Of a DNA stretch of 32,847 bases, positions 2,674 through 13,180 are shown in pieces. The stretch's first letter is position 1, and each line of letters opens with the position of its first letter. This DNA is from Polaribacter sp. GTDB lineage: Bacteria > Bacteroidota > Bacteroidia > Flavobacteriales > Flavobacteriaceae. The DNA is taken from contig JAQWIO010000116.1 of assembly GCA_029248845.1 (NCBI GenBank), positions 1 through 32,847 of the forward strand. The letters run 5' to 3'. A program made the position numbers and the translations under genes. The notes under the pieces are model-generated. The model was not told the origin of the DNA and did not search any database. It was given only the letters and a program-made list of their open reading frames with translations.

Positions 2674-2767
2674 TTCATTTAATTTAATAACAAGATTACA
2701 AAACAATATTGTAATAACAATATTTAAATTATATTTGAGCCGATTTTAGGTTTTGATATAAAAATTC

Positions 2768-2960
2768 ATTTTGTATCAAATTAAAAGGGAATCTGGTGAA
2801 AATCCAGAACTGTTCCCGCAACTGTAAGTTAATGCTGTTTTTTCAGCACCTCATTAGAGGATGTTACTTAAACTCTAGCCACTGTATGTACTAAATACTT
2901 TAGTATAAATGGGAAGGCATAGTAACATAAGAACAAGTCAGGAGACCTGCCAATAATCAT
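2768..2960 (+). ncRNA. Cobalamin (B12) riboswitch
   Basis: AAAAGGGAATCTGGTGAAAATCCAGAACTGTTCCCGCAACTGTAA ... GGGAAGGCATAG ... AAGTCAGGAGACCTGCC: conserved cobalamin riboswitch elements including the B12 box, directly upstream of a TonB-dependent receptor. Boundaries approximate. Confidence 0.93.
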
Positions 2961-3052
2961 GAGTTAAAAACTTTCGGGATAAAAGTTTATGTACTACTAT
3001 TTTACTGTACACGAAATTTACCTGATTTATTGTAAATCAAATTTATTAATTG

Positions 3053-10833: not shown

Positions 10834-11958
10834 ATGGCAAAACAAGATTTTTACGAAGTATTAAACATTTCTAAATCGGCATCACAAGCAGAAATAAAAA
10901 AAGGCTATAGAAAAATGGCTATTAAATATCACCCAGATAAAAATCCTGGTGATAAAACTGCGGAAGAAAATTTTAAAAAAGCAGCTGAGGCTTATGAAAT
11001 TTTAAGTGACGAGAATAAAAAAGCAAGATATGATCAATATGGTCATCAAGCCTTCGATGGACCTCAGGGCGGTGGCGGTTTTGGTGGTGGCGGAATGAAT
11101 ATGGATGATATATTCAGTCAATTTGGAGATATTTTTGGAGGTGGTGGCTTCGGAGGTTTTGGCGGTGGCGGTGGTCAACGACAAGCTCGTGTAAAAGGGA
11201 GCAATTTGCGTATTCGTGTAAAACTTACTTTAGAAGAAATTGCTAGAGGAGTAGAAAAGAAAGTAAAAGTTCGAAGAAAAGTTCAAGCAGACGGAGTGAC
11301 TTATAAAACATGTCCTACTTGTAATGGTTCTGGCCAGCAAATGAGAATAACCAACACTATTTTAGGAAGAATGCAAACTGCTTCAACTTGTTCTACTTGT
11401 ATGGGGTCAGGAGAAATAATTCACAACAAACCTAATGGCTCAGACTCACAAGGTTTGATTGTAACAGAAGAAACTGTTACGATCAATATACCTGAAGGAG
11501 TTACAGAAGGAGTTCAATTAAAAGTAGGTGGAAAAGGAAACGATGCTCCAGGGAAAAAATCAATTTCTGGAGATTTATTAGTTTTAATTGAAGAAATCCC
11601 TCATGAAACTTTAAAAAGAGAAGGGAACAACATTCATTATGATCTTTATGTTAATTTTTCAGAAGCTGTTTTAGGAACAAGTAAAGAAGTTAATACGGTT
11701 ACTGGTAAAGTTAAAATTAAAATTGATTCTGGAACTCAATCTGGTAAAATATTAAGATTAAAAGGGAAAGGTTTGCCAAGCATAGAAAGTTATGGAACAG
11801 GGGATTTCTTAATTCATATAAATGTATGGACACCAAAGGAGTTAAATAAAGAGCAAAGAAGGTTTTTTGAAAAGATGTCTGACGATGAAAATTTTACTCC
11901 AAGTCCAAATAAGTCGGATAAATCATTTTTTGAAAAAGTAAAAGACATGTTTTCTTAA
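10834..11958 (+). CDS. dnaJ: Molecular chaperone DnaJ
   Basis: J domain with HPD (KYHPDKNPGD), Gly/Phe-rich linker, two CXXCXGXG motifs, C-terminal substrate-binding domains. Confidence 0.95.
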   Translation: MAKQDFYEVLNISKSASQAEIKKGYRKMAIKYHPDKNPGDKTAEENFKKAAEAYEILSDENKKARYDQYGHQAFDGPQGGGGFGGGGMNMDDIFSQFGDIFGGGGFGGFGGGGGQRQARVKGSNLRIRVKLTLEEIARGVEKKVKVRRKVQADGVTYKTCPTCNGSGQQMRITNTILGRMQTASTCSTCMGSGEIIHNKPNGSDSQGLIVTEETVTINIPEGVTEGVQLKVGGKGNDAPGKKSISGDLLVLIEEIPHETLKREGNNIHYDLYVNFSEAVLGTSKEVNTVTGKVKIKIDSGTQSGKILRLKGKGLPSIESYGTGDFLIHINVWTPKELNKEQRRFFEKMSDDENFTPSPNKSDKSFFEKVKDMFS

Positions 11959-12042
11959 ACATATGTAAATATTATATAGTTGAATACCTCTTTTTCATGA
12001 AAAATATTTTTAACAAAGGTAGTATTAAGCTATATTTACACC

Positions 12043-12114
12043 GTTGTTAAACAATTAACAACATTTCTTTTTCATAGCAATTTTTTTCCCACTCAAAGTT
12101 TGAGTGGGTTTTTT
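12043..12114 (+). ncRNA. Candidate small RNA, copy A of a tandem pair
   Basis: -7-like TATATTTA (12031-12038); 5' hairpin GTTGTTAA-ACAA-TTAACAAC (12043-12062); 22-nt block TTTCTTTTTCATAGCAATTTTT (12064-12085) identical to copy B; terminator CCCACTCAAAGTTTGAGTGGG + T6 (12088-12114). Confidence 0.65.
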
Positions 12115-12535
12115 CTTTACAAATATTGAAACAACAACAAAATACAAGATCTCTCTATCTTAAATATATTTAATTTTAACAGAAAATAAGTTCATTAGAA
12201 AACTTTATTAATCAAGTTAAAATTCGAGATACTTTGTTTTTTAAATATCAATTTTAGAACTATTTATTCAATTTTAAAAAAAAAGCTATATACGCAAATA
12301 AAATTTACAATTAATTAAGGTACTTAGTCATTTTATCAGTTAATTGATGGCAGGATATTAGCTTATTTTTTTAATAAAACTTTGTAGTTTTTTATTAGTC
12401 ATAATTTTTTATGATAAAACCCTTAAATTATTTGAATAAAATTAAAAAAACAACAATTTTATAACATTATAAGAAAAAAAAATAATTAGGTGTTTTTTTT
12501 ACACGAAAATACTTGGTTAGTATTAAATTCTATTA

Positions 12536-12543
12536 TATATTTG
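12536..12543 (+). promoter_or_regulatory. Bacteroidetes-type promoter for sRNA copy B
   Basis: TATATTTG (TAnnTTTG -7 consensus) with TTG at 12513-12515 (20-nt spacer); predicted start coincides with the first base of the copy B hairpin. Confidence 0.6.
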
Positions 12544-12547
12544 TATA

Positions 12548-12618
12548 GTTATTAAGAAATTAATAAGTTTTTCTTTTTCATAGCAATTTTTCGCACTCAT
12601 ATTTTGAGTGGGTTTTTT
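12548..12618 (+). ncRNA. Candidate small RNA, copy B of a tandem pair
   Basis: 5' hairpin GTTATTAA-GAAA-TTAATAAG (12548-12567); block TTTCTTTTTCATAGCAATTTTT (12570-12591); terminator CGCACTCA-TATT-TTGAGTGGG then T-run. Confidence 0.7.
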
Positions 12619-12649
12619 TATGAATAATGAATGATTTAAAAACAGTATA

Positions 12650-12952
12650 GAAATTGCGAATTTACCTTATCGTCACGCTATTCGTGAAGGAAAGTCCGAA
12701 CACCAAAGAGTATCATAGCGGATAACATCCGTCCAACGTAAGTTGAGGACAAGTGCAACAGAAAGAATGTACAGTTAGGCTGTAGTGAAACCAGGTAAAC
12801 TCTATGAGGTGCAATGCCATGTAAATTAGAGCTTGAGAGCTTCTCGCTCGATTCTAAAGGGTAGGCAGATAGATTCTAAAAGTAATTTTAGAACTAGATA
12901 AATGATAAGGACCTTTTAAGGAACAGAATTCGGCTTATTAATTCGCATTTTC
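12650..12952 (+). ncRNA. rnpB: RNase P RNA (bacterial class A)
   Basis: GTGAAGGAAAGTCCGAACACC, CAACAGAAAGAA, GTGAAACCAGGTAAACTCTATGAGGTGCAATGCCA, AAGGGTAGGCAGATAGA, GAACAGAATTCGGCTTAT; ends pair to form P1. Boundaries approximate. Confidence 0.95.
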
Positions 12953-13180
12953 TATACTGTTTTTAAATTAAAAATTACGAAATCTCTATTTTAATCAATT
13001 AAATTTTAAAGAATATAAAAACATTTTCTTCTTATACGTTTATAAGAGTTATCTATGTATTTGTCTTTTAAAATTGAGATAAAAAATGTAATTTTGAGGG
13101 CGTTAAATAAAACAAAAAAACTTTTAACTTCTGACATAAAATTAATTTATAATTCAGACCCAAATCAAAGATTTTTTTTC

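Follow-up and report, generated by a model that had tools for sequence, protein, structure and literature searches.

A dnaJ-linked small RNA family of Flavobacteriaceae with comEC as a candidate target in the Polaribacter/Tenacibaculum clade

Two repeat units between dnaJ and rnpB

The window, that is, the whole stretch of 32,847 nt of Polaribacter sp. that was analysed (contig JAQWIO010000116.1, assembly GCA_029248845.1), carries two units of ~72 nt, defined by direct reading of the sequence, in the interval between dnaJ and the RNase P RNA gene rnpB (Table 1). Both units follow one plan, in which a TAnnTTT(G) box is succeeded by a 5′ hairpin, a 22-nt linker that is the same in the two, and a terminator; the copies also have GG(T)TAGTATTAA upstream in common. 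No ORF of ≥40 aa is present from the dnaJ end (11958) to position 13006, in agreement with the first-pass annotation, which had seen no credible ORF in the gap.

That annotation had described two paralogous repeats made of box, hairpin, linker and terminator, and the units are indeed present in this form, the identity of their 22-nt linkers being confirmed by direct comparison. The 8-4-8 hairpin geometry that it had assigned to both copies is complete in copy A, where 8 of 8 pairs are formed, but not in copy B, where the outermost (basal) pair is G-G and 7 pairs are left. Both terminators exist as claimed, with the reservation that the second pair of the copy B stem is G-G. The change at the fourth hairpin pair, G-C in copy A and A-T in copy B, was found as stated.

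Table 1. Features of the dnaJ–rnpB region, with one further RNA element of the window
Feature	Position	Strand	Evidence and remarks
Cobalamin riboswitch	2731–2968	+	RF00174, 91 bits
dnaJ, conserved upstream neighbour of copy A	10834–11958	+	Synteny; ORF
Copy A promoter box, −7-like, TATATTTA	12031–12038	+	Sequence; TAnnTTTG similarly spaced in orthologs; inferred, without transcript data
Copy A, sRNA gene, dnaJ-linked ortholog	12043–12114	+	R1 61.1 bits, R2 60.7 bits; dnaJ immediately 5′
Copy A 5′ hairpin	12043–12062	+	Arms GTTGTTAA (12043–12050) and TTAACAAC (12055–12062), loop ACAA
Copy A linker, proposed seed, single-stranded	12064–12085	+	Same in copy B; core invariant in alignments A1 and A6
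Copy A terminator	12088–12114	+	Stem 12088 to 12108, then T6
Copy B promoter box, −7, TATATTTG	12536–12543	+	Sequence; inferred
Copy B, paralogous sRNA gene adjoining rnpB	12548–12619	+	R1 69.4 bits, R2 44.5 bits
Copy B hairpin	12548–12567	+	Arms 12548–12555 and 12560–12567
Copy B linker, proposed seed, invariant	12570–12591	+	Identical to copy A linker
Copy B terminator	12592–12619	+	Stem 12592–12612, then T7
rnpB (RNase P RNA), downstream neighbour in Polaribacter group	12653–12953	+	Rfam RF00010, 193 bits

An RNA family found throughout the Flavobacteriaceae

In much of the genus a genome contains up to several exact copies of the 16-nt core of the units, against 0–2 for the reversed control. 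Alignments made with MAFFT only misplaced the hairpin; the first covariance model, R1, was made from five clean copies, all from other genomes, with the copies of the window left out. R1 finds both window copies (Table 1) and has matches in each of the 60 genomes of the genus, 1–16 per genome. At the family level 134 of 151 genomes are matched, for the most part once only; they represent 133 of 150 Flavobacteriaceae genera. The genus (g1 of the search set) includes both Polaribacter and Tenacibaculum; Lutibacter and Aureivirga are also among the organisms identified with the RNA. A second model, R2, had no match outside Flavobacteriaceae among 248 genomes from the class. The fast filters used in this search lose weak matches, as is seen from genomes G218 and G183, which carry the RNA and were missed by R1.

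In the alignment of copies the 5′ hairpins are very different in sequence yet paired, the terminator is present and the linker, with the consensus C-U5-CAUAGCAA-U4+, is unpaired and invariant. The covariation that the first-pass annotation had read from a single pair is supported across orthologs: in the alignment of dnaJ-linked copies, double-sided changes affect 8 of the 9 pairs of the 5′ hairpin, 93.7% of the hairpin cells pair (35–53% with the partner slid), and the covariation score was reached by none of 500 shuffles. The hairpin was seen in 19 of 20 folded orthologs, the 20th sequence being cut inside it, and the folded orthologs have two stem-loops only.

None of the 4227 Rfam models matched the sRNA at the gathering score, and thus no clear known family emerged from the comparison that had been proposed. 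The best sub-threshold match, Ref84, reached 34.2 bits against the 52 required; as indications of identity the sub-threshold matches were rejected as chance-like only. At the gathering score the window and its relatives gave only RNase P and, in the window, the cobalamin riboswitch. Neither of the two RNAs that the first-pass annotation named for comparison agrees with it. Flavo-1 (RF01705), itself a flavobacterial structured RNA candidate, scores below gathering. Rfp18 of Flavobacterium psychrophilum, likewise a conserved flavobacterial sRNA, has at least three stem-loops, the third of which pairs with its targets, metalloproteases (PMC9723704), while the dnaJ-linked sRNA has two. We found no published description of the RNA in open papers; supplements, subscription papers and preprints were outside the literature search, and therefore an unnamed entry in some sRNA list is possible. 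We have little doubt that the sRNA family is real and, as far as can be told, undescribed.

The search for homologues that the first-pass annotation had suggested thus shows linker and hairpin conserved across Flavobacteriaceae, and its reading of the units as paralogous sRNA genes with a covarying hairpin, an invariant linker serving as seed and promoters and terminators of their own is upheld by the comparative evidence. Absent from it were the orthology of copy A, the near-universality of the RNA in Flavobacteriaceae, the phage copies and the candidate target comEC.

comEC as a candidate target

We scanned the start regions of 979 genes, from 1.2 of the 2.31 Mb of Polaribacter genome G023, for pairing with the linker. 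The best site (−18.0 kcal/mol) belongs to a gene whose product is ComEC, as judged from the Pfam Competence domain PF03772 and the motif LAVSGLH; the linker CUUUUUCAUAGC pairs with GCUAUGAAAARG, covering the comEC start codon. This gene was picked as the top of 979, and the set of orthologs is a separate test. The first 25 comEC orthologs read in the genus all lie at or below −11.5 kcal/mol (range −11.5 to −18); with four added starts 29 of 29 pair, at −11.5 to −18.3 kcal/mol with a mean of −15.4. The 29 starts are related and do not amount to 29 independent events, and the match is in part coding sequence. Twenty further gene families from the clade had means no lower than −8.9 kcal/mol, with at most 18% of their members at −11.5 or less. 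The site is also present in genomes G094 and G137, both of which have several sRNA copies.

The comEC match was equalled by none of 300 shuffled linkers and by one of 300 core permutations. Bases −3 to −1 of comEC are GCT, conserved at 96, 93 and 89%, compared with 48–59% at positions −7 to −4. GCT precedes ATG in 8 of the 979 G023 genes. It sits where transcription may start, and a promoter role is not excluded.

In G023 itself the comEC frame (L279:6854) stops after 351 aa, versus ~675 in relatives, and is truncated or frameshifted; its start site is intact. In many genera (L337–L392) a TAnnTTT-type box was observed ~7 nt before the comEC ATG, which suggests a nearly leaderless comEC mRNA family-wide.

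The comEC genes of the single-copy genera that were read have no pairing site, and comEC therefore cannot explain the family-wide conservation of the RNA. Genome G122, with seven sRNA copies, has no comEC site either. That the site was gained in the clade with extra sRNA copies is suggestive, not proven.

Broader rules of targeting were considered and rejected. A general action against start codons fails, since UUGCU before AUG is at chance level and the G023 start regions overall pair with the linker no better than internal coding windows do. A general attack on genes starting AUGAAAAAG, a sequence contained in the linker complement, has little to act on: only 5 of 979 genes start so, and 74 start AUGAAAAAA. 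Exact UUGCUAUGAAAA sites outside the sRNA number ~100 in 37 genera, close to the 71 of the control, and the loci read revealed no further target that recurs. When GCTATGAAAARG was sought in 16 genomes of this genus, no gene except comEC recurred at the start codon among the loci read, and no other com gene was found by motif in the scanned half of the G023 genome. The looser GCTATGAAAARR gave very many matches over 25 genera; in some single-copy genera (e.g. G114, G103 and G109) it is clearly commoner than the reversed control. The G of codon 3 of comEC, at one time taken as proof of selection, lost weight: AAG stands before Leu codons in other genera too, and the G may be ancestral.

A conserved unpaired linker together with a conserved complementary site, here the comEC start of the clade, is what is asked of a base-pairing sRNA. 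We consider base pairing the probable mode of action, in the absence of binding data, and with rather less assurance favour comEC as a target in the Polaribacter/Tenacibaculum clade, for which neither expression nor binding data exist. The main competitor, unlikely in our judgement though not to be neglected, is a regulatory RNA whose linker binds a protein or a structured RNA instead of mRNAs, the comEC match being then a promoter or start-site signal. U-rich single strands are typical protein sites, and the linker is such a strand; it is also more rigid than changing targets would need and is retained in genera without the comEC site. Pairing with comEC is nevertheless favoured by the coincidence of the conserved part of the comEC start with the linker core and by the specificity of the match to the real order of that core. 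A mere start-site signal is further disfavoured by the lack of GCT in the other near-leaderless genes, i.e. those with a promoter box just before ATG (0 of 98).

Linkage to dnaJ, loss and duplication

Twenty copies from other genera were inspected, and all 20 sit immediately 3′ of dnaJ and in its orientation; a TAnnTTTG-like box comes soon after the dnaJ stop codon. The next genes are in most cases two adjacent ORFs of ~310 and ~440 aa; where its sequence was read, the ~310-aa product looks like an ABC-transporter ATPase. In Polaribacter rnpB follows in place of the two ORFs, as it does at one of the 20 other-genus loci (L212), and it also adjoins loci L006, L008, L014, L019 and L024. The placing of the units upstream of rnpB in the first-pass annotation therefore holds for the Polaribacter group, but the neighbour conserved family-wide is dnaJ. 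Since linkage to dnaJ is conserved in other genera, it is copy A that is the ortholog, copy B being a duplicate close by. As judged by sequence comparison, an RNA gene with box, covarying hairpin, invariant linker and terminator is thus orthologous after dnaJ in almost all Flavobacteriaceae.

Because copy A directly follows dnaJ, with no terminator-like site between them, its terminator is probably the end of the dnaJ mRNA as well. In genus g133, inferred to be probably Flavobacterium, a bare terminator follows dnaJ in four of five genomes (L263, L265, L268 and L270) and the whole RNA is present in one (L266). As those four keep the terminator alone, box, hairpin and linker were lost as a single unit.

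Named contigs yielded 119 exact copies, of which 59 show linkage to dnaJ and/or rnpB; the other 60 are elsewhere. The dispersed copies occupy recurrent sites after the same upstream genes: 27 follow a transferase-like gene in Tenacibaculum and 10 follow a carA-like gene (both gene names come from reading the sequences). At L221 (genome G122) and L076, four to five sRNA copies stand in tandem at spacings of a few hundred bases; the hairpins are nearly identical inside each array.

A position closely 3′ of dnaJ, with no other terminator before it, would also suit an elaborate terminator or a stabilising 3′ UTR element of dnaJ only, copied together with its terminator. This is improbable given the TAnnTTTG-like box before most copies, the many paralogs away from dnaJ and the persistence in g133 of the terminator alone where the rest is lost; viral copies, conversely, vary the terminator sequence and keep the linker.

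Copies in viral contigs

The sRNA core was found in 23 viral contigs, 17 of which are matched by the full model at E ≤ 0.002. Several viral copies have a promoter-like box, a hairpin of their own and a different terminator, with the linker unchanged; own hairpins and unrelated terminators were seen in contigs L174, L178–L183, L189–L192, L195 and L196. Neighbouring genes encode an integrase (L174, L183 and L196), a NinB-type recombination mediator (L180) and a transcriptional regulator (L182). A blastn search of INPHARED phages gave no convincing match. In L183 and L196 the copy is right beside the integrase, so that it might double as an attachment site.

Multiple copies, and viral ones next to integrases, could point to a mobile repeat (MITE- or REP-like) or a phage attachment sequence. 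We give this very little credence: the position after dnaJ is fixed and orthologous in genera throughout the family, paralogs recur after the same genes, the hairpin covaries, and no integrase of the L183 or L196 type lies near the chromosomal paralogs. Least credible of all are short MKK... leader peptides encoded on the opposite strand, with hairpins on that strand; the complement does read UUGCUAUGAAAAAG, but it is the + strand that carries the promoter boxes and T-runs, and the frame after AUG differs between copies in length and content.

Proposed mode of action and relation to known systems

On the basis of the conservation, structure, synteny and complementarity seen in the compared sequences, we propose, with a probability of roughly 0.6 and without expression or binding data, a trans-acting, base-pairing small RNA of ~70–85 nt that has comEC as a main target in the Polaribacter/Tenacibaculum clade. 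Its transcription is inferred: the RNA would be made from its own promoter and would probably double as the 3′ terminus of the dnaJ transcript. The 5′ hairpin may protect the 5′ end and present the linker, which as antisense seed would cover the start codon of target mRNAs, the resulting block of initiation being likewise an inference. In Polaribacter and Tenacibaculum the predicted duplex would form where a nearly leaderless comEC mRNA begins; single-copy genera would have a different target, not comEC. In the flavobacterium Riemerella ComEC is required for transformation (PMC8459023), therefore lower ComEC should mean less DNA uptake, and a comEC block would lower it; this effect on transformation, too, is inferred.

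FopS of Bacteroides thetaiotaomicron, reported from Bacteroidaceae, comprises paralogous multi-copy sRNAs with a standard promoter, a single-stranded seed and a terminator; it represses by pairing near start codons, targets SusC/PUL mRNAs, has its sequence also in a phage and has as partner the RRM protein RbpB (PMC11697453). The flavobacterial sRNA is similar in its copy number (1–16 per genome), TAnnTTTG-like boxes, terminator and viral copies, and would be so in start-codon pairing, which is predicted here for comEC only. It differs in its 5′ hairpin, the FopS 5′ end being unpaired. RRM_1 (PF00076) proteins were found in 0 of 12 genomes, with a positive Bacteroides control. Because of the 5′ hairpin and the lack of an RRM partner in the 12 genomes, the sRNA should not be filed as a FopS member. 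A search for a FopS-named Rfam model gave no match up to E = 10 on 11960–12660; the presence of a FopS model in our Rfam copy is unconfirmed.

In Legionella, the chromosomal sRNA RocR, assisted by RocC (ProQ/FinO), base-pairs with the 5′ UTRs of DNA-uptake mRNAs, and RocRp, a copy on mobile elements, silences transformation (PMC7973641, PMC11472951). The predicted pairing with a DNA-uptake gene and a silencing role of the full copies in 17 viral contigs would be the counterparts here; phylum and sequence are unrelated, and the predicted pairing covers the start codon of one gene. Enterobacterial-type 3′-UTR sRNAs lie after a coding gene, have an internal promoter and share the terminator. The dnaJ-linked sRNA resembles them in position and in its inferred shared terminator and own promoter, but is fixed family-wide and was later dispersed to other loci.

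That phage copies imitate the sRNA to silence competence is an inferred role, and a tentative one. We would be just as guarded about a wider scenario, in which a family-wide sRNA with ties to the grpE-dnaJ heat-shock operon was co-opted and amplified in Polaribacter/Tenacibaculum as a silencer of comEC and transformation, with temperate-phage mimics shutting host DNA uptake, as an independent parallel to RocR/RocRp.

To our knowledge, few base-pairing sRNAs are known in Bacteroidota. Within Flavobacteriaceae the dnaJ-linked sRNA has the distribution of a core gene, yet no earlier description of it was found. An orthologous sRNA in >130 genera offers a test case for how sRNAs gain targets, as a target site for this one linker can be recognised only in the clade with multiplied gene copies. 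Should the comEC pairing prove functional, DNA uptake would be controlled by RNA in a dominant marine bacterial group, and the phage copies would be a means by which phages steer the competence of their hosts.
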